A DNA stretch of 64,000 bases, from positions 248,001 through 312,000 of the forward strand of contig NZ_PYVW01000002.1 in NCBI RefSeq assembly GCF_003056355.1, read 5' to 3'. Every line of letters begins with the position of its first letter. Within the stretch, counting starts at the first letter, position 1. The notes beneath the pieces were generated by a model, which worked only from the letters and a program-made list of their open reading frames with translations, made no database searches and was not told the origin of the DNA. A program made the position numbers and the translations under genes. Positions 6,580 through 36,125 of the stretch are shown here, in pieces. Source of the stretch: Devosia naphthalenivorans. Its GTDB lineage: Bacteria; Pseudomonadota; Alphaproteobacteria; Rhizobiales; Devosiaceae.

Positions 6580-6987
6580 ATGCCTATACAGATTTTCGTC
6601 AACCTGCCTATCAGCGACCTTGCGGCCTCGATGGCTTACTACAAGGCGCTGGGCTTTGATCATAATCCCCAATTCACCGACGAGACAGCCGCCTGCATCG
6701 TTATCAGCGACACCATCTATGTGATGGTTCTCACCCACGAAAAATTCGCCCAGTTTTCCGATCTGCCGATCCCCGACGCAAAGCAGCAGCGCCAGGCGCT
6801 CTATGCCCTGTCGCGCGATAACCGCGAGGCCGTCGACCAGATCGCCGAAGCCGGTGTCGCTGCGGGCGGCAAGGAAACCCGTGAGCGCCAGGACTACGGC
6901 TTCATGTATTCCCGCGCCATTGCCGATCCCGATGGCCATACCTGGGAATATATGTGGATGGACATGAGCCAGATGCCCACGGAATAA
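6580..6987 (+). CDS. VOC-family (glyoxalase/bleomycin-resistance fold) protein
   Basis: 135 residues in the two-module vicinal-oxygen-chelate layout. The first beta-alpha-beta unit is IQIFVNLPISDLAASMAYYK, and the second ends in the characteristic DPDGHTWEYMWMDMSQM, where the Glu of WEY sits at the usual metal-ligand position. The N-terminus NLPISDLAASMAYYKALGF is typical of the PhnB/YaeR-like single-domain subgroup. VOC proteins bind a divalent metal and catalyse varied reactions or bind antibiotics; the subgroup does not fix the substrate. The gene stands alone with an AGG-rich leader (gaggaaataccaATG) and converges on the FtsX-type permease gene. Confidence 0.85.
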   Translation: MPIQIFVNLPISDLAASMAYYKALGFDHNPQFTDETAACIVISDTIYVMVLTHEKFAQFSDLPIPDAKQQRQALYALSRDNREAVDQIAEAGVAAGGKETRERQDYGFMYSRAIADPDGHTWEYMWMDMSQMPTE

Positions 6988-7020
6988 ACGGGTCGCTTGC
7001 GCTAGTCCTACCGGGTCACT

Positions 7021-7050
7021 GCAGCGAAGGCGGGATCTCGCTTTCGCTGC
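7021..7050. terminator. Hairpin between convergent genes
   Basis: GCAGCGAA (7021-7028) is exactly complementary to TTCGCTGC (7043-7050), separated by 14 bases. It sits midway between the VOC gene and the convergent permease gene. There is no T-run on either side, so it may act as a bidirectional stabilising or pausing hairpin and not as a classical intrinsic terminator. Confidence 0.4.
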
Positions 7051-7078
7051 AATGTCGCTTCGGTTAACGCGGCCGTCG

Positions 7079-9625
7079 CTACAGGTCGCGCAAGAGGCGG
7101 GCGGGGCGGGCGGAGGCGGCGCGCAGGATGGTCATGGAGCCGAGCAGGGCCGTGATCAGCGTCGCGACCCCCAGGACAACCAGCAGGCTGCGCAGATCGA
7201 GGGTGAAATCGACCTGGAGCATGATGAAGCTGATCAGCCAGCCCAGTCCTATGCCCAGAAAGATCGCCGGCACCGCAGCGAGCAGGCCCAGCACCAGATA
7301 TTGCGCGAAGGCCGAGAGCATCAGTTCGCCGCGGGTTGCACCCAGCACTTTGGTGATGACGGCGTCGGCCTCGCGCTGGCGGCGGCCGGTGGCGAGACTG
7401 CCGATCAGCACCAGCAGGCCATTGCCCACGGCGAGGCCGCCGATCAGGGTGGCTGCAAAAGACAATTGGCTGAGGGCATTGGTGACCTGCTTCAGCGTAT
7501 CGCCGATGGCGATGAAGCTGATGAAGGGCAGGGCGGTGGCGAGTTCGCGCTCCACTGCTTCCTCGCGGCCGGGCGCAGTGGTGACGGCGGCGAACAGGGT
7601 CGTGGGATAAGCTTCCAGAACGCCCGGGGAGAAGGTTGCTAGGAAATCGATGCCGCCCTGCCAGGAATAATCGCGGAAATTGGTGATCTCGGCGGTGATG
7701 TCTTCGCCAAAGATCTGGAAGGTCAGGGTGTCGCCGATATCGACGCCCAGACCCGAACGCAGGCTCTGGTGCAGGGAAACCAAGCCGGGACCAGTGTAGC
7801 CAGCTAGCCACCAATCGCCACCGGTCAGCTTGGAGGTGGCCGGCATCTGGTCGCGGTAGGTCAGCGGAACTTCGCCCGAAAGGAGGAAGGTCGCCTCGGG
7901 GCCGCGCGTTTCAACATCGGCGGCGGGTACGCCATTGATCGCTGTCAGGGCGCCGCGCAGCATGGGTGTGGCAACGAACAGGGGAATGTCGGTGCCGGGG
8001 CCGGACATGGCCTCAAGCGTTTCGACCTCATCGGGGAAGAGATCGGAAGCGACCAGCGTAGGAGCGCCAAAGGCGGAGGCGCCAAAGAACTCCTGGCGCA
8101 GATTGGCCTGCAGAACCAGCACGACGATCAGCATGGTGAGGGCCATGCCAGCCGAAACCACGACGGAGGCTGCATTGCCGCCGCCGGTCGAGATGTAACG
8201 CTTGGCATGACGCAAAAGGCGGGCCGGCGGGTCGGGCAGATGGCGCAGAGCGCTTTGCACCAAAGCGATGAAGGCCTCGAAAAACAGAGCGGTGATGGCG
8301 CTGGCCACGGCGAAAGCGGCCACCAGCATGGCATCCTCGGTCATGGCATAAGCCAGCAGGAGGAAGGCGATGATGGCTGCCAGCAGCGGGAGGATGCGGG
8401 TGGAAAGGAGCAGGCTGCCCCATTCCAGCGGCGGCGCCGCAAGACCCTTGGAGCGGAACAGGTGGACCGGGCGAATGGTCTGGGCCTGTTGCAGGGGCAG
8501 ATAGGAGAAGGCAAACGCGGTAACGAAGCCGGCGCCGGCGGCAACCAGCAGAGGCTGCAGATGAAGCGAGGATGGCAGGGCGATGCCGACCGCCTGGCCA
8601 ACAAAGGGCAGGACCAGATAGGCGGCACCGCCCCCGATTAGCAGGCCAATTCCAACGCCGATCGCGGCCAGAGCCACCACCTGCGAGAAGAAGTGTACGA
8701 AGACGCGCGAGCGGTCGGCGCCCATGCTGCGCAGGATAGCGATAACGTTGGAGCGCTCGGCAATATAGGCCTGCATGCCGCTCCAGACGCTGACGCCACC
8801 GATCAGCAGCGAGCCAAGACCCACGATCACGAGGAAGCGCATGAACAGATCATAGTAACGCACCATGGGGCCCAGCCCGTCCCGGGCGGAGCGCACGGTC
8901 CAGCCGCTATCGGCCAAGGCTGCCGCGACCTTGGCCTTTGCGTCCTCGGCGTCCCGCCCGTCGAGCAGGATCTTGTAGCGGAACCAACTGCCCAGACCCG
9001 GCAGCGGCGAGGTGCGGTCGGAGATGGTGGCGAAGCCGTCAAGCGTGATGAGCGTAGTCAGGCCGAGGCGGAAGCCGCGCACGGCGGCATCGGGAAGCTT
9101 GGAGAGGGTTCCGCGCGCTTCGAATTCCGTCCCGCCCAGTTGGAAGCGATCGCCAACGGCAATGCCGAGCTGATCGAGCATGAGCGGATCGAGCAGGGCG
9201 CCGAATACCTCGCTGCGGGGCGCGAGGAAATCAGCCAGGGCGGTGCCTGCGGGCAGTTGCGGGCTCTCGACGGTGCCGGCCAGTGGATAGGTGTTGCCGA
9301 CGGCGGTGAGGTCGACGAAGGCATCGGAGGTGGGTGATTGTGCCCGCACATTGGTGTCGACGACAGCCGAAACGGCCCCGAAACTTTGCAGGATCGGCAA
9401 CTCGTCCGGATTGGCGGGGCGGTCGGCACGCGAGAGTTCCAGATCGCCGCCCATCAGGATAGCAGCGTTGGCGTCGATCGAGGCAGCGATGCTCGCCCCA
9501 ACGGAGCTGACGCCGGCGATCAGGGCCGTACCAACTGCAAGGCAGACCACGAGGAGGACGAAGCGGCGCAGGTCGCCGCGCAGATCCAACAGGCCGACAC
9601 GGACAGCCGCGAGGAACCCAGCCAT
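7079..9625 (-). CDS. FtsX-family ABC transporter permease (YbbP-like)
   Basis: 848 residues with the arrangement of large MacB/FtsX-type permeases of the YbbP class. Transmembrane helix 1 is at about 20-45 (FVLLVVCLAVGTALIAGVS). A large extracytoplasmic domain follows, then three helices (VIVGLGSLLIGGVSVWSGM onward), central helices, a second periplasmic domain and three C-terminal helices ending in the FtsX signature. YbbA-YbbP systems are thought to act as mechanotransmitters or lipid/lipoprotein handlers, not importers, and physiological substrates are unclear. The start ATG overlaps the stop of the upstream ATPase gene by one base (TGATG), so the two form a coupled operon. Confidence 0.85.
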   Translation of the reverse strand: MAGFLAAVRVGLLDLRGDLRRFVLLVVCLAVGTALIAGVSSVGASIAASIDANAAILMGGDLELSRADRPANPDELPILQSFGAVSAVVDTNVRAQSPTSDAFVDLTAVGNTYPLAGTVESPQLPAGTALADFLAPRSEVFGALLDPLMLDQLGIAVGDRFQLGGTEFEARGTLSKLPDAAVRGFRLGLTTLITLDGFATISDRTSPLPGLGSWFRYKILLDGRDAEDAKAKVAAALADSGWTVRSARDGLGPMVRYYDLFMRFLVIVGLGSLLIGGVSVWSGMQAYIAERSNVIAILRSMGADRSRVFVHFFSQVVALAAIGVGIGLLIGGGAAYLVLPFVGQAVGIALPSSLHLQPLLVAAGAGFVTAFAFSYLPLQQAQTIRPVHLFRSKGLAAPPLEWGSLLLSTRILPLLAAIIAFLLLAYAMTEDAMLVAAFAVASAITALFFEAFIALVQSALRHLPDPPARLLRHAKRYISTGGGNAASVVVSAGMALTMLIVVLVLQANLRQEFFGASAFGAPTLVASDLFPDEVETLEAMSGPGTDIPLFVATPMLRGALTAINGVPAADVETRGPEATFLLSGEVPLTYRDQMPATSKLTGGDWWLAGYTGPGLVSLHQSLRSGLGVDIGDTLTFQIFGEDITAEITNFRDYSWQGGIDFLATFSPGVLEAYPTTLFAAVTTAPGREEAVERELATALPFISFIAIGDTLKQVTNALSQLSFAATLIGGLAVGNGLLVLIGSLATGRRQREADAVITKVLGATRGELMLSAFAQYLVLGLLAAVPAIFLGIGLGWLISFIMLQVDFTLDLRSLLVVLGVATLITALLGSMTILRAASARPARLLRDL

Positions 9626-12214: not shown

Positions 12215-13231
12215 ATGCAGAAGCGGGCTAACCAGGCTGATATTGCGGAGCGGTTGGGGGTGTCGGTCAGCACGGTGTCGCGTGCGCTGGCGAACGAAAT
12301 CGGGATCAGCGAAGCTGTGCGGCGGGATGTGCAGCGGATGGCGCGGACGCTGGGGTATCGGTCCAAGCACATTATCGGCATGCCGGCGGGCGACAAGCGG
12401 GCGGTGGCGCTGGTGCCTCTGGGTGGCGCGACGAGCGGGTTGTCGGGGTTCTATTCGGGCATTGTCGAGGGCATGCGCGCGCAGGCGGCGGAGGCCGGGA
12501 TGGTCCTCGATGTGCGGCTGGTGAACGAGTCCGTGGTGACGCTCGAGATGATCCGCAAGCAGATCACCCAGGCCGATGCCGGTGGTGTGTTGCTGGCGGG
12601 GATCGATGCGTGGGACGAGCTGACGCAGTGGTGCGGGCAAGAGAATATCCCGGTCGTGCTGGTCAATGGCAGTGACCCCAAGATGCGGTTCAGCTCGGTT
12701 TCGCCGGCCAATTTTTATGGCGCGTACCAGGCCACGCAAAGGCTGCTGGACGCCGGCCACAGGCGGATTTTGCACTATACGCACCGCTATCGGCCGACCA
12801 TTTTGCAGCGGCAACGCGGGTTCGAGGCGGCGATTGCGGCAACGCCGGGCGCGGTGGGAACGATCGTCAATACGGTGGAGCGCAAGACCAGCGAATTGCT
12901 GGCTGATCTGCTGGATGGCAAGCACAACGTCACGGCGCTGTTCTGCTGGAACGACATCGCGGCGGTGGAGATGCTGGAGGGGCTCTATGGGCCCGACAGC
13001 ACCTTGCCGCCGAGCTTTTCCATAGTCGGGTTCGACGACCTGCCGATCGCCGGAATGGCGACGCCGCGGCTGAGTACGGTGCGGGTGGATCGCGAGGCTA
13101 TCGGGCGCGGGGCCGTGCGTTTGCTGGCGCTGCATATGGAGGGCGAGGCGGCCATCCTGCAGTTGGAGACAGGGGTGACGCAGGTTGCCGGCGAGACGGT
13201 CGCTACCGGGCAAGCCTTCGCTTACCGCTGA
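12215..13231 (+). CDS. LacI/GalR-family transcriptional regulator
   Basis: 338 residues. The N-terminal helix-turn-helix reads QADIAERLGVSVSTVSRALA (about 7-26), followed by the hinge helix region VQRMARTLGYR. The effector domain has the periplasmic-binding-protein fold, with the usual FYSGIVEGMRAQAAEAGM start, NGSDPKMRFSSVSPANFYGAYQATQ and the C-terminal FSIVGFDDLPIAGMATPRLSTVRVD signature. Most family members are repressors released by a sugar or sugar acid. The gene lies between the esterase and the ABC importer genes in the same direction. TTG at 12212 immediately before the ATG is an alternative start and makes no practical difference. Confidence 0.9.
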   Translation: MQKRANQADIAERLGVSVSTVSRALANEIGISEAVRRDVQRMARTLGYRSKHIIGMPAGDKRAVALVPLGGATSGLSGFYSGIVEGMRAQAAEAGMVLDVRLVNESVVTLEMIRKQITQADAGGVLLAGIDAWDELTQWCGQENIPVVLVNGSDPKMRFSSVSPANFYGAYQATQRLLDAGHRRILHYTHRYRPTILQRQRGFEAAIAATPGAVGTIVNTVERKTSELLADLLDGKHNVTALFCWNDIAAVEMLEGLYGPDSTLPPSFSIVGFDDLPIAGMATPRLSTVRVDREAIGRGAVRLLALHMEGEAAILQLETGVTQVAGETVATGQAFAYR

Positions 13232-32234: not shown

Positions 32235-32261
32235 TTGTCGTTGTACTCGCGCATTCCATGA

Positions 32262-32351
32262 GAGCTCATGGTGAGCTTGTCGAACCACGAGGTCGGGAAC
32301 TCCGATCTCGCCACGCCCTCGTCCTTCGACAGGCTCAGGATGAGGGCTACT
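32262..32351. repeat. Family-E repeat units
   Basis: Two imperfect facing units, GAGCTCATGGTGAGCTTGTC-GAACCACGAG and CCACGCCCTCGTCCTTCGAC-AGGCTCAGGATGAGG, lie between the reductase and GST genes. The second overlaps the last bases before the reductase stop. Confidence 0.75.
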
Positions 32352-32357
32352 GAAATT

Positions 32358-34064
32358 CTAGATATCCAGCACCAGGCGCGCTGACTTGGCGCGGGAGACG
32401 CAGGTGAGGATGGCGGTGTTGGCGCGTTTTTCGCTGTCGTTGAGATAGACGTCCTGGTGGTCGCATTCGCCTTCGATAACGCCGGTGAGGCAGGTGCCGC
32501 AGGCGCCTTGTTCGCAGGAGCTGGGGACGGAAAGGCCGGCTTCGCGCATGACTTCCATGATGGTCTTGCCGGCGGGAATTTGGAGCGTCATGGCGGAGCG
32601 GGCGAGTTCGACTTCGAAGGTCGAGCTGTCGTCGATGACCTTGTCGTTCTTGAAGTATTCGAAGTGGATGGACTCTTCGGGCCAGCCTTGCGTCGCGGCG
32701 GTGACACGGACGGATTCGAGCATCGCAGAGGGGCCGCAAACATAGACGTGCTGGGCGTGGCTCCATTCGCCTAGAGCCTGCGAGATGGTCTGGCCGATCT
32801 CGGTGCGGGCAAGGCCCGTGTGCAGGATCACCTTGCCATGCAGGCTTTCCAGATCGGCGCGGAAGGCGACTTGCTCGCCCACGCGGGTGAAATAGTGCAG
32901 CTCGTACGGCAGGCGCGACTTGTCGAGGAAGCGCGCCATGGAGAGGAGCGGCGTGATGCCGATGCCGCCGGCGATCAAGACCGTGCGGACGGCATCGCGG
33001 CGCAGCGGGAAATTGTTGCGCGGCTCGGAGATGGAGAGCAGGTCGCCTTCGCGGACGGACTCGACCAGAATTTTGCTGCCGCCTTTGCTGGCGCTCTCGG
33101 CCTTGACGCCGATGATATAGCTCAGCAGATCGCCGGGGCCGTTGGTGATGGAATATTGCCGGATCAGGCCATTGGGCAGGTGCAGGTCGATATGGGCGCC
33201 CGGCTGGAAGGTCGGCAGATGGCCCTCGCGCGGGGCGAGCTCGAAGCCGATGACGCCGTCGGCGCTGGTCCATTTGCGCTTGACCACGACGGTGGTGGTA
33301 TTGCCGCGCGGAATGGCGATATCGGGCATGGTGGCGAGGTCCACCGAAACCTTCTCGAAGGCCGGCTCCAACGGGGCGGGGGCAGGCTTCTTGCGGGCGG
33401 CGCGCTCGAGGCGGTCACGGAGCTTGGTCAGGGTTTCGTTGTAGTGGCGGAGGATCGCAATCGCGTCCTCGGGCTGGCCGGCAAGCACGCCGCGAATGAC
33501 GGCGCGGCCGCTATCGACGGGCTGGACGAAATAATGGGCATGGCCCAGCCGCACGGCGAGGCCGGGCAGGATGTCCGCCGGCTGGTCATCGGGGGCAAGG
33601 CCGATCAGGCCGGCGAGCACGTCTTCGGGCGCGGCATTGACTGGGATGGGACGGAGCGGGAACCAGTCGCCGGTTTCGGCGCCGGGAAAAGGCTGGAAGG
33701 CCTGATCGTCATTGGCGGCTGACCAGACGAGGCCAAAGGCTTCGCGGACCGGATAGGTGCGGTTCTGGATGCGGCGGGCGGGGGCGTCGGCGGGGTGGGC
33801 GGGGATATAGGTGCAGCCGGCAGAGCGGTTGGCGTAGCGCCAGCCATGGTATTGGCATTTGAGCTCGCCGCCCTCGTTGATGCCGATGGAAAGGCGCACG
33901 CCGCGATGGAGGCAGCGGTTTTCCCAGACATTGACGTTGCCGTCATCGGCGCGCCAGACGGCGAGTTCGCGGCCGAGGAGCTGGCCCTGGTAGACGTGGC
34001 GGAACGGCAGGTCGTCGGAGCTGGCGATGGGGTACCAGGTGGAATCGGAGAGGGAGAGGGTCAT
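32358..34064 (-). CDS. Oxygenase reductase with an N-terminal Rieske domain and C-terminal ferredoxin domain
   Basis: 568 residues in three parts. Residues about 8-125 form a complete Rieske [2Fe-2S] domain with Cys51/His53 (CLHRG) and Cys70/His73 (CQYHGW). After a linker that resembles the end of an oxygenase, residues about 250-470 are a flavin/NAD reductase with the FMN motif RQYSITNG and the nucleotide motif VLIAGGIGITPLLSMA. Residues 485-568 are a plant-type ferredoxin with Cys517, Cys522, Cys525 and Cys555. VanB-type reductases have only the last two parts. The adjacent oxygenase gene lacks Rieske ligands, so this protein probably supplies the Rieske centre in trans. Both genes are on the same strand, 202 bases apart. 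Confidence 0.85.
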   Translation of the reverse strand: MTLSLSDSTWYPIASSDDLPFRHVYQGQLLGRELAVWRADDGNVNVWENRCLHRGVRLSIGINEGGELKCQYHGWRYANRSAGCTYIPAHPADAPARRIQNRTYPVREAFGLVWSAANDDQAFQPFPGAETGDWFPLRPIPVNAAPEDVLAGLIGLAPDDQPADILPGLAVRLGHAHYFVQPVDSGRAVIRGVLAGQPEDAIAILRHYNETLTKLRDRLERAARKKPAPAPLEPAFEKVSVDLATMPDIAIPRGNTTTVVVKRKWTSADGVIGFELAPREGHLPTFQPGAHIDLHLPNGLIRQYSITNGPGDLLSYIIGVKAESASKGGSKILVESVREGDLLSISEPRNNFPLRRDAVRTVLIAGGIGITPLLSMARFLDKSRLPYELHYFTRVGEQVAFRADLESLHGKVILHTGLARTEIGQTISQALGEWSHAQHVYVCGPSAMLESVRVTAATQGWPEESIHFEYFKNDKVIDDSSTFEVELARSAMTLQIPAGKTIMEVMREAGLSVPSSCEQGACGTCLTGVIEGECDHQDVYLNDSEKRANTAILTCVSRAKSARLVLDI

Positions 34065-34207
34065 GGTGCGGTACTGGTCGGGATCGCGCCACGATCGTTC
34101 TGTAAGTTTGTCGCAGTCCTGGCGTACGGGACTCGATTTGGTTCCTTGCCGAAGTAAGGAAGGGTGGGGCGTGGTTTAAAGGCCCGCGATATCGTGGCTC
34201 TCCTACC

Positions 34208-34249
34208 CCCACCCTTGATCCCTCCCCGCAAGGGGGAGGGGGTCGACTG
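34208..34249. repeat. Family-A palindromic repeat
   Basis: Third copy of CACCCTTGATCCCTCCCCGC plus G-run and GTCGACTG, between the oxygenase and reductase genes. Confidence 0.85.
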
Positions 34250-34266
34250 TGAAATCCTGGCCATCT

Positions 34267-35160
34267 CTAACCCGCGGCGGGGATGACCCCGTAGGTAACG
34301 CCCTTTTGCGACAGCCACCGGCGATAAGCAATGGCGGATTTGTCGGCGCGGATGGGGGTTTCCGAGCGAGGATCGAGGGGCAGTCGCTTGGGGTACTGGT
34401 TTTCGAGGATCGGCTTGTCCTGGCCGAAGATCGTCTGCTGGAAGCGGCGCAGCTCGGTAATGGTGGAGGTAGAGTCGATCATCGACTGCAGCAGGTGGGC
34501 GCGGCAGCGGTCCTCGGAAACCGGCTGCAGGAAAATGGCGATGACGTCGCGCCGCTCGGGAGCCTCGGGCGAGGATTTATAGAGCACCGAGCAATAGGGG
34601 TGCGGCACGCGATAGACGTATTCGACTTCCATGCCGTCGGTGGCCGACAGGGCCGCGCGGGGCTGGAAGAAGCGGCAGCGGGTGGCGAGGACCTCGTCGC
34701 GTTCCTCGGAAACTTCGACGTCGTATTCCTTGACCTCGGTGTGGGGTTCGGCGCCCAGGATATCGGTGTGGACGTAAGGGAAGTGGCCCATGTCGAGGAA
34801 GTTTTCGACGGCGCGGGGCGCCGAGACGTGAATGCCGATGGAGCCGCAACTCATGTTGACCCGGTCGGGTTCGGCGTATTCGGTAATGGAGAACAATTCC
34901 TTGGGCGGGGTGCCGAGGGACGTCCAGACGAAGCCGTAGCCGGTGGTGACGGGAAGGCGATCGAGGATGGTTTCGGGATCGATCTCGTCGCCGGGCTCTT
35001 CATCGGTGCAGCGCCAGACAACCGGCACGCCATCACGGTCGCGGGTGAGTGCGAGGGGCGTGTCGAGCAGGGTCGTGCGCGTGATGCTGCCGACCGGGAT
35101 CTCGTCCGTTGCGGCGATCACCTGCCAGGAATTGAGCGTCAGGGTGTCTGGTGTGGTCAT
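34267..35160 (-). CDS. Rieske-type oxygenase catalytic subunit lacking the Rieske cluster loop
   Basis: 297 residues, short for the VanA/dicamba-monooxygenase class (340-370). The start at 35160 is preferred; 57 more bases are open. The N-terminus has the first strands of a Rieske domain (SWQVIAATDEIPVGSITRTT, then DTPLALTRDRDGVPVVWRC) and its last strand (LPVTTGYGFVWTSLG), but the roughly 45 residues with CxH...CxxH are missing. The catalytic domain is intact: NFLDMGHFPYVH gives iron ligands His126 and His131 and the bridging Asp123, and GQDKPILENQ gives Asp248. The partner reductase downstream has a complete Rieske domain. The substrate is unknown; a demethylase-like reaction is possible from family resemblance only. 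Confidence 0.8.
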   Translation of the reverse strand: MTTPDTLTLNSWQVIAATDEIPVGSITRTTLLDTPLALTRDRDGVPVVWRCTDEEPGDEIDPETILDRLPVTTGYGFVWTSLGTPPKELFSITEYAEPDRVNMSCGSIGIHVSAPRAVENFLDMGHFPYVHTDILGAEPHTEVKEYDVEVSEERDEVLATRCRFFQPRAALSATDGMEVEYVYRVPHPYCSVLYKSSPEAPERRDVIAIFLQPVSEDRCRAHLLQSMIDSTSTITELRRFQQTIFGQDKPILENQYPKRLPLDPRSETPIRADKSAIAYRRWLSQKGVTYGVIPAAG

Positions 35161-35222
35161 GGTGGTGAGATTACTGCGTGAGAGGCGGAAGGGAAATGGG
35201 GAAGTTGGGTGGCACATCCAAC

Positions 35223-35263
35223 CATCTCAGGATGGATCCCGGCTCAAGGCCGGGATGACATTG
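35223..35263. repeat. Family-D palindromic repeat
   Basis: CATCTCAGGATGGATCCCGG followed by CTCAAGGCCGGGATGACA: a hairpin with ATCCCGGC/GCCGGGAT arms, between the SDR and oxygenase genes. It matches 30161-30197. Confidence 0.85.
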
Positions 35264-35287
35264 TGGGTGGGATGAGACCGGGCCCTG

Positions 35288-36061
35288 CTAGCCGCGATAG
35301 ATGTCGAAGGGGCCGAAGGCCTGGGTCGTGGCCATGACCTGGAGGCGGTTGACGTTGACGTGCTCGGGCAGGAGCGTCGACCACATTATGGTTTCGGCGA
35401 TGTCTTCGGCGTTCATCGCCTTGGTGCCTTGATAGGGCTTGGCGGCTTTGGATTCGTCGCCCTTGAAGCGGACCAGGGAGAATTCGGTTTCGGTCAGGCC
35501 GGGCTCGATATTGGTGACGCGGATGTTCTTGCCTTGCACATCGGAGCGCAGGTTGAGAGCGAACTGTTTTACGAAGGCCTTGGTGGCGCCATAGACCGAG
35601 CCGCCGGGATAGGGGTAGTCGCCGGCGACGGAGCCCAGCGTTACCACATGGCCGCCACCGCGCGCGATCATGCCGGGGAGCAGGGCGCGGACGGTGTAGG
35701 CGAGACCCGTGATGTTGGTCGCGATCATGGTCTCCCAATCGGTGATGTCGGTTTCGGCGGCGGGCTGCAGGCCCAGGGCGAGGCCGGCATTGGCGAGAAC
35801 GACGTTGATGCCGGCGAATGCTGGGGGCAGCGCTGCAATGGCAGCGTCGATGGCGGCGCGGTCGCGCACGTCGAGTTCGATGATGTGGCAGTTCTCGCGG
35901 CCCAATTCGTTCTGCAGTTCGACCAGCCGATCATGGCGGCGGCCGGTTGCGATCACCTTGCCGCCGGCCGCAACATAGCGGCGGGCAGCGGCGGCGCCGA
36001 AGCCCGAGGTGGCGCCGGTGATGAAGACGACGAAGCGGCTGGGATCGAGCAACTGGTACAT
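35288..36061 (-). CDS. Short-chain dehydrogenase (YdfG-like)
   Basis: 257 residues, classical SDR. The nucleotide motif TGxxxGxG is ITGATSGFGAAAARRYV, VLANAGLALG is the NAG motif, the catalytic Ser lies in LGSVAGDYPYPGG, and YxxxK in VYGATKAFVKQF. Arg in ATGRRHDRL suggests NADP(H). The C-terminal region (IEPGLTETEFSLVRFKGDE) is like YdfG, which oxidises L-serine, L-allo-threonine and 3-hydroxy acids and reduces malonic semialdehyde. The start at 36061 has GGAAG 5 bases upstream. It is first in a same-strand row with the oxygenase, reductase and GST, with repeats between each, so a functional link is possible but not certain. Confidence 0.87.
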   Translation of the reverse strand: MYQLLDPSRFVVFITGATSGFGAAAARRYVAAGGKVIATGRRHDRLVELQNELGRENCHIIELDVRDRAAIDAAIAALPPAFAGINVVLANAGLALGLQPAAETDITDWETMIATNITGLAYTVRALLPGMIARGGGHVVTLGSVAGDYPYPGGSVYGATKAFVKQFALNLRSDVQGKNIRVTNIEPGLTETEFSLVRFKGDESKAAKPYQGTKAMNAEDIAETIMWSTLLPEHVNVNRLQVMATTQAFGPFDIYRG

Positions 36062-36125
36062 GCGGACTTCCGTGAGGTGAGGCAAAGACGCGCCAGTTGA
36101 ACCAGTGGTGCCGGTACGGTCAACA

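Follow-up and report, generated by a model that had tools for sequence, protein, structure and literature searches.

In a 64,000-nucleotide stretch of the Devosia naphthalenivorans genome (contig NZ_PYVW01000002.1, positions 248,001 to 312,000; hereafter the window), three genes on the minus strand encode a Rieske-type oxygenase that lacks its Rieske cluster, a reductase that carries one, and a glutathione S-transferase (GST)-like protein (Table 1). They are transcribed in the order oxygenase, reductase, GST-like gene, with spacers of 202 and 123 bases; in many rhizobial relatives the genes nearly touch. A preliminary description of this DNA had placed the oxygenase and reductase genes correctly but overlooked the third. 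Our analysis indicates that the trio is very probably a split Rieske oxygenase of the NdmCDE type.

Table 1. Genes and protein regions of the trio (window positions)
Feature	Position	Strand	Basis
NdmC-like Rieske-less oxygenase, 297 aa	34267..35160	-	VanA_C and non-heme iron site
Vestigial Rieske domain, oxygenase residues 1-82	34915..35160	-	base strands present, cluster loop gone
NdmD-like reductase, 568 aa	32358..34064	-	Rieske, NAD-binding and Fer2 domains
Functional Rieske domain, reductase residues 1-102	33759..34064	-	C51, H53, C70, H73
Miniature metal-less catalytic-domain remnant, reductase residues 103-248	33321..33758	-	hhalign to oxygenase profile
Flavin/NAD and plant-type [2Fe-2S] ferredoxin module, reductase residues 249-568	32361..33320	-	2pia match, Fer2
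NdmE-like GST-fold protein, 215 aa	31587..32234	-	GST_N_3, E = 1e-15

Metal sites of the oxygenase and the reductase

The oxygenase contains a VanA_C catalytic domain (residues 112-285, E = 8e-24; Pfam), and its Rieske match was partial and below threshold (residues 11-48, E = 0.064). By sequence, its iron site reads N120-x-x-D123-x-x-H126-x4-H131, followed by D248. E119, N120, D123, H126, H131 and D248 were invariant in 89/89 aligned oxygenases, window included, although the scan behind 80 of these loci used the patterns [AV][VI]ENFLD and HFP[FY]VH, which leaves D248 alone free of bias. In a structural model of the oxygenase (predicted local distance difference test, pLDDT, 87; predicted template modelling score, pTM, 0.88) the base strands of a Rieske domain were retained, with N-terminal strands at residues 13-17, 27-31, 34-40, 46-50, 71-74 and 77-80 (block pLDDT 91-98). 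The best structural match of the model was the saxitoxin hydroxylase SxtT (residues 2-293 against SxtT 2-334; Z = 30.3, 2.5 A over 284 residues), and phmmer matched oxygenase residues 50 to 74 with SxtT 52 to 112. The cluster loop is thus lost, as had been proposed, but it amounts to approximately 36-41 residues rather than approximately 45.

The motif CxH-(10 to 25)-CxxH was absent from all six frames of window positions 34065-35700. Among 91 oxygenase domains (the window, 89 relatives, some of them near-identical and a few cut at contig ends, and L033), it was found only in L033, an intact oxygenase that serves as outgroup; a motif flagged for L039 falls outside its oxygenase domain, and the L083 oxygenase, cut at a contig end, is without its N-terminus. 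The L033 gene (4995-5969, Leptolyngbya boryana) adjoins a BMP-type transporter and is among the closest intact relatives found.

The reductase carries a Rieske domain (residues 9-92, E = 2e-19), an NAD-binding domain, a weak FAD-domain match and a Fer2 domain (residues 488-560; Pfam), and all four Rieske ligands are present in 78/78 aligned reductases, window included. Its reductase module is closest to phthalate dioxygenase reductase (2pia; residues 268-568, E = 4e-66). A VIA-align comparison of the reductase model with 2pia (Z = 32.0, 4.2 A, 313 residues) was filled by this module and barely probed the N-terminal half. Residues 483-568 matched the NdmD ferredoxin domain (chain 6icm_D, E = 2.7e-18), the sole NdmD piece returned by the PDB search. 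Domains and ligands therefore back the earlier pairing of a cluster-less oxygenase with a reductase bearing its own Rieske centre, and the residues then named as ligands (H126, H131 and D248; C51, H53, C70 and H73) were correctly numbered.

Relation to NdmCDE and distribution of the trio

The preliminary description knew of no described system with this split, a claim that does not hold: NdmC, NdmD and NdmE of Pseudomonas putida CBB5, a 7-methylxanthine N7-demethylase, share it (reviewed in PMC4408171 and PMC10380055). Homologous clusters of unknown function have been reported in 18 more organisms, the closest in Janthinobacter, Klebsiella and Pseudomonas and the others mainly in Sinorhizobium and Mesorhizobium (PMC4408171), so the wide distribution of the system was partly known already. 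The NdmCDE complex has a mass of 360 kDa and a 3:3:3 composition (PMC10380055), and a 2026 paper gives its structure as unsolved (PMC13237722). Homologues of ndmC, ndmD and ndmE also occur in coffee-borer bacteria, where they need not act on caffeine (PMC8055839).

Like NdmCDE, the window trio combines a Rieske-less oxygenase, a reductase with Rieske, flavin/NAD and plant-type ferredoxin domains, and a GST-like third protein, with NdmC and NdmE of CBB5 being compared by description only. The gene order is identical to that of the ndm-like cluster of Paraburkholderia caffeinilytica, on whose plasmid the trio adjoins two oxygenases (356 and 358 amino acids) and formaldehyde genes. In contrast to the caffeine ndmABCDE cluster, no NdmA/NdmB-sized oxygenase or formaldehyde dehydrogenase lies beside the window trio. 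NdmA and NdmB of CBB5 are N-demethylases structurally related to the window oxygenase (Z approximately 24-25), but they are complete two-domain subunits.

Other related systems differ more. The catalytic domain of the oxygenase is of the VanA_C family, as in VanA/VanB. In the VanA/VanB and phthalate dioxygenase systems the Rieske domain lies on the oxygenase and the reductase has none, whereas Pfam and the motif scan found no such domain on the window oxygenase. SxtT and GxtA, to which the reductase's Rieske domain is also closest in sequence among oxygenases, carry an intact Rieske domain of their own and use a separate reductase.

Trees were built from 34 and 44 chosen rows rather than from all loci (L147-L150 are in neither), and the drawn root is a midpoint. 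The 34 Rieske-less rows formed one clade (99/99, L026 included) with the P. caffeinilytica ndm-like cluster row among them, which supports common descent with the ndm-cluster proteins.

In a sample of 61 genomes of the genus, own genome included, the oxygenase was encoded in 48. The reductase (E <= 1e-100) and the GST-like protein (E < 1e-90) were each found in 46 of these 48, with G035 and G056 as the exceptions for both, compared with 0/13 genomes without the oxygenase, 4 of which are less than 90% complete. The GST tally was taken from a family-wide search of 136 genomes and shows presence, not adjacency. The co-occurrence of the gene pair that had been suggested as a check is thus observed (46/48 with the oxygenase against 0/13 without). 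Linkage was assessed in 80 named loci, the best of at least 514 relatives obtained by searching with an alignment of diverse relatives, a choice that leans to close kin. A Rieske-reductase fusion and a GST-like gene lay downstream of the oxygenase in 69 of the 72 loci with at least 2600 bases downstream, the 8 shorter ones being excluded. Beyond the genus, the oxygenase was found in 46/297 genomes and 18/122 genera of the order sample (E <= 1e-50) and in 16/398 genomes and 12/213 genera of the phylum sample (E <= 1e-60). Named hosts include rhizobia, Pseudonocardia, Nocardioides, Acidimicrobiia and Granulosicoccus, and the nearest named relative among the retained loci is Devosia submarina (oxygenase 93% identical). 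The Devosia group used below (25 loci) is made up of the window, L035-L057 and L083, with L036 and L045, which are named otherwise, assigned to it by identity.

We consider an NdmCDE-type system very probable because the domain content and ligands observed in the window give the architecture of NdmC, NdmD and NdmE, the proteins belong to a common clade, the three genes are linked and co-occur, and oxygenase and reductase carry reciprocal, homologous vestiges (see below). Several observations weigh against this reading. The window oxygenase is only 43-46% identical to the ndm-type L026, L027 and L034, which form their own clade (100/99) apart from that of the window (98/97). The trees contain long branches, for which the program warns of possible false joins, and support for the Rieske-partner clade is moderate (89/83). 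A stop codon lies within the GST matches of G030, G043 and G045, the G060 reductase is split over two frames, and L085, L106 and L114 lack part of the set despite enough DNA. The reductase model has a low pTM (0.51; pLDDT 83).

In Pseudonocardia dioxanivorans (L085) the oxygenase is followed by a Rieske domain, with no reductase module or GST match downstream, and at L106 and L114 (Acidimicrobiia) no Rieske, reductase or GST match was found within approximately 8 kb on either side of the oxygenase. A limited search of open-licence papers did not find the separate branching of the Devosia/rhizobial group from the caffeine-cluster proteins in print.

Predicted electron path and substrate

In ordinary Rieske oxygenases, the electron leaves the cluster of one subunit for the iron of another (PMC12445004). 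Its route runs through an Asp that connects the Rieske His with the iron His, a residue that several enzymes cannot do without (PMC5033481). In the window oxygenase, the D123-x-x-H126 spacing equals that of the bridging Asp180/His183 of carbazole dioxygenase. Because transfer between subunits is established in these enzymes and the bridging-Asp spacing is retained, the N-terminal half of the reductase may plausibly replace the neighbouring subunit of an ordinary Rieske oxygenase. Electrons would then run from NADH through flavin and the plant-type [2Fe-2S] centre to the Rieske cluster, all within the reductase, and would cross the protein interface via Asp123 to the non-heme iron of the oxygenase, activating O2. 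For the organism of the window, this path and the complex are predictions.

The GST-like protein may hold oxygenase and reductase together, and we favour such an adaptor role, as proposed for NdmE. Formaldehyde capture by this protein is another candidate function, with which the retention of Ser10 in 77/77 GST-like proteins would agree. Against it, 32 of the 77 have Ser and 43 have Ala at position 67, the usual site of the glutathione-binding Ser in GSTs. The protein also occurs in loci of Actinobacteria, which generally lack glutathione.

The likeliest reaction would be oxidative N-demethylation of an N-methylated purine, such as 7-methylxanthine or 7-methylguanine, with release of formaldehyde, and a purine substrate has, in our estimate, a slightly better than even chance of being correct. 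In Mesorhizobium AR02, a guanine deaminase and a molybdopterin protein are annotated beside the trio. BMP-type proteins adjoin it in 34/56 non-Devosia loci, and formaldehyde dehydrogenase in 12/80 loci plus L026. Some relatives have neighbouring nucleobase symporters, and the best model for an amidohydrolase beside the trio in relatives was 8-oxoguanine deaminase, below the model cut-off. The own genome encodes a xanthine dehydrogenase, a guanine deaminase and a BMP protein within approximately 11 kb of one another, on the same contig and approximately 140 kb from the trio.

A somewhat less probable but serious alternative is that the same complex acts on a non-purine substrate, another N-methyl or heteroaromatic compound oxidised by the Devosia/rhizobial group. 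None of the 25 Devosia-group loci, some of which are short and in which nucleobase symporters were not searched for, gave a BMP or formaldehyde dehydrogenase gene, and the substrate may for this reason differ from a purine; window positions 20001-48000 likewise gave no formaldehyde dehydrogenase match. Whereas gene neighbours in some relatives suggest N-methylated purines, nothing linked to the Devosia genes does. The separation of the clade from the ndm-type proteins and the identity of the nearest solved structures, SxtT and GxtA, point the same way. In Sinorhizobium meliloti, a putative vitamin B6 transporter model is the only match of the adjoining BMP protein, and the neighbouring aminotransferase matches aspartate-glyoxylate, phosphonate and pyridoxamine models, all far below cut-off. 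These neighbours do not single out purines, and their weak vitamin-B6-type matches lend the alternative some support. Against a non-purine substrate stand the neighbours in Mesorhizobium AR02 and the purine-related genes gathered on the contig of the own genome. Conservation of the trio in Devosia without a caffeine-type gene cluster suggests a substrate beyond caffeine. No paper joining Rieske, 7-methylguanine and demethylase was found in the limited search of open-licence papers.

We also considered a link to riboflavin breakdown and rejected it: the excerpt of PMC12746152 describes an alpha/beta Rieske dioxygenase whose ferredoxin and reductase are separate, and names Devosia in a reference only.

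Degenerate counterpart domains and gene arrangements

The region between the Rieske domain and the reductase module (residues 103-248), taken as a profile of 78 reductases, aligned collinearly with the oxygenase profile over 117 columns (hhalign, Prob 96.4, E = 1.4e-9). Controls were far lower (Prob 0.1 for the reversed oxygenase profile, 1.4 for the best of 50 column shuffles, 0.5 for the reductase module and 0.2 for the Rieske module). The aligned stretch comprises the first strand and helix, the 'FVQPVD' strand and the last helix, which in the oxygenase is the Asp248 helix; the part bearing the two iron His is missing from the reductase remnant. Reductase residues 134-224 were modelled as b-b-a-b-b-b-b-a with a long last helix (block pLDDT 88-97). 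Conversely, the Rieske domain of the reductase aligned with the N-terminus of the oxygenase over 44 columns, with the cluster loop absent (Prob 96.6), and the whole N-terminal half of the reductase aligned with the whole oxygenase (Prob 98.1), both by hhalign without a shuffle control.

Ratios of nonsynonymous to synonymous substitution (dN/dS), simple pairwise estimates with some high dS values, did not reach 0.4 for any part of the three genes across four Devosia comparisons. They were 0.01-0.07 for the Rieske domain of the reductase, 0.03-0.13 for the catalytic domain of the oxygenase, 0.19-0.39 for the oxygenase N-terminus, 0.08-0.29 for the reductase remnant and 0.10-0.21 for the reductase module. 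In each comparison the intact Rieske and catalytic domains had ratios below those of their vestigial counterparts. The remnant overlaps the reductase module, however, and for L035 lies below it (0.079 against 0.097); its relaxation is seen against the Rieske domain only, and selection supports degeneration in part.

Probably, then, two complete subunits degenerated reciprocally, the oxygenase losing its cluster and the N-terminal half of the reductase its catalytic site. We prefer this history because the reductase has a degenerate catalytic domain and the oxygenase a degenerate Rieske domain. The N-terminal half of the reductase would be a former complete oxygenase subunit without its catalytic site, the oxygenase a sister copy without its cluster, and the Rieske copy would afterwards have been fused to a module of the phthalate dioxygenase reductase type.

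The preliminary description had proposed a domain relocation; it was right to put the cluster on the reductase, but the history is probably wrong given the degenerate counterparts in both proteins. A true relocation, in which the Rieske domain alone moved onto the reductase and the linker is new or unrelated, is unlikely. It is the wording of a review (PMC4408171) and would fit the mere 17% identity between linker and catalytic domain, but it does not account for the collinearity of the two through the last helix at a probability well above that of the best shuffle. Further against it, the free Rieske proteins of Rhizobium, Agrobacterium, Variovorax and Paracoccus have a similar tail, by eye, and Foldseek aligned the reductase model with SxtT over 300 columns (E = 1.7e-13), although at a root-mean-square deviation of 11.6 A.

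Another explanation, that the oxygenase is a relic without function and the reductase works with a different enzyme, we judge very improbable. NdmD does also serve NdmA and NdmB (PMC4408171). The ligands of the oxygenase are conserved, its catalytic domain shows the low dN/dS given above and the three genes co-occur across genus genomes, and on the last two grounds an orphan relic was rejected. Rieske-domain matches occur at four places of the own genome (E <= 0.001) with no further match near the trio; the three outside the reductase, in open frames of 127, 283 and 179 amino acids, also count against a relic. That a sequencing or assembly error deleted the cluster loop has negligible probability and was likewise rejected, since no frame of the window region holds the motif and the same loss recurs in the 89 relatives.

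The Rieske half occurs in four gene arrangements. In the window, as in nearly all of the 72 loci that could be tested, it is joined to the reductase in one protein. In Rhizobium leguminosarum and Agrobacterium, a free Rieske protein of approximately 220 amino acids accompanies oxygenase and GST-like genes, with no reductase gene nearby. Paracoccus alcaliphilus and one Komagataeibacter nataicola set have free Rieske, oxygenase and GST-like genes and a separate reductase gene. In Variovorax, the Rieske protein is free and the oxygenase itself is fused to the reductase. Within the single clade formed by the 24 Rieske-partner rows, the four free proteins diverge earliest and the fused forms are nested (91/85), so that one split followed by later fusions is favoured, with moderate support in these trees. 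Neither the reciprocal degeneration nor the four arrangements were found in print in our limited search of open-licence papers.

Taken jointly, the following history may be right or wrong with about equal probability. An ancestral subunit would have been duplicated, one copy keeping the iron site and the other the Rieske cluster, to give a donor and an acceptor that depend on each other and are held together by a GST-fold adaptor. The cluster copy would have been free at first, as it still is in Rhizobium, Agrobacterium, Paracoccus, Komagataeibacter and Variovorax, and its fusion to the reductase would have come later, in the lineage that includes NdmD and the window, while in Variovorax the oxygenase would have been fused instead. 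On this account the family would span Alpha-, Beta- and Gammaproteobacteria and Actinomycetota, its main role would be salvage of N-methylated purines, perhaps from RNA turnover, and caffeine use would be a late specialisation.

The kind of system is already described; what could interest specialists is the reciprocal-degeneration history and the four arrangements. With donor and acceptor on different polypeptides, each metal site can be changed, removed or exchanged without affecting the other, a freedom that ordinary oxygenases do not offer. According to a 2025 review (PMC12445004), a self-sufficient Rieske oxygenase system has yet to be identified. The four natural arrangements offer ready parts for such designs, and the Variovorax oxygenase-reductase fusion needs just a Rieske protein to be self-sufficient. 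In Variovorax paradoxus (L030:8004-9818), the fusion joins a Rieske-less oxygenase to a flavin/NAD/ferredoxin reductase, and another protein, of 228 amino acids, carries the Rieske domain.

Several loci showed further variation. A second Rieske-less oxygenase gene lies directly upstream of the first in 29/80 loci (e.g. L058, L061, L069 and L096), a count that excludes L057, where the second match comes from part of the first gene read in a different frame. These second oxygenases have approximately 282 amino acids, 8 such rows formed a clade (90/83), and none was seen in the Devosia-group loci. Their presence suggests that complexes contain a mixture of oxygenases or that there is a second substrate. 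K. nataicola from a kombucha tea culture (L148:4986-10476) has two neighbouring sets, each with a Rieske-less oxygenase, a free Rieske protein and a GST-like protein; the Rieske protein of the first is without the second Cys ligand (motif ...GVYHGW), which leaves three. In Rhizobium rhododendri (L032), approximately 5 kb separate the oxygenase gene from the free Rieske and GST-like genes, which are on the other strand. The free-Rieske loci L029, L031 and L147 all have an annotated acylphosphatase gene (6917-7186, 6897-7154 and 12240-12474, respectively) close to the trio-like cluster.

Upstream of the window trio, on the same strand, lies a gene for a YdfG-like short-chain dehydrogenase (35288-36085). 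Relatives of it lie upstream of the trio in 24 Devosia-group loci, and its membership of the operon is doubtful because a gene on the opposite strand intervenes in 17 of them. The two intergenic gaps of the trio in the window (32235-32357 and 34065-34266) appear repeat-like by eye.

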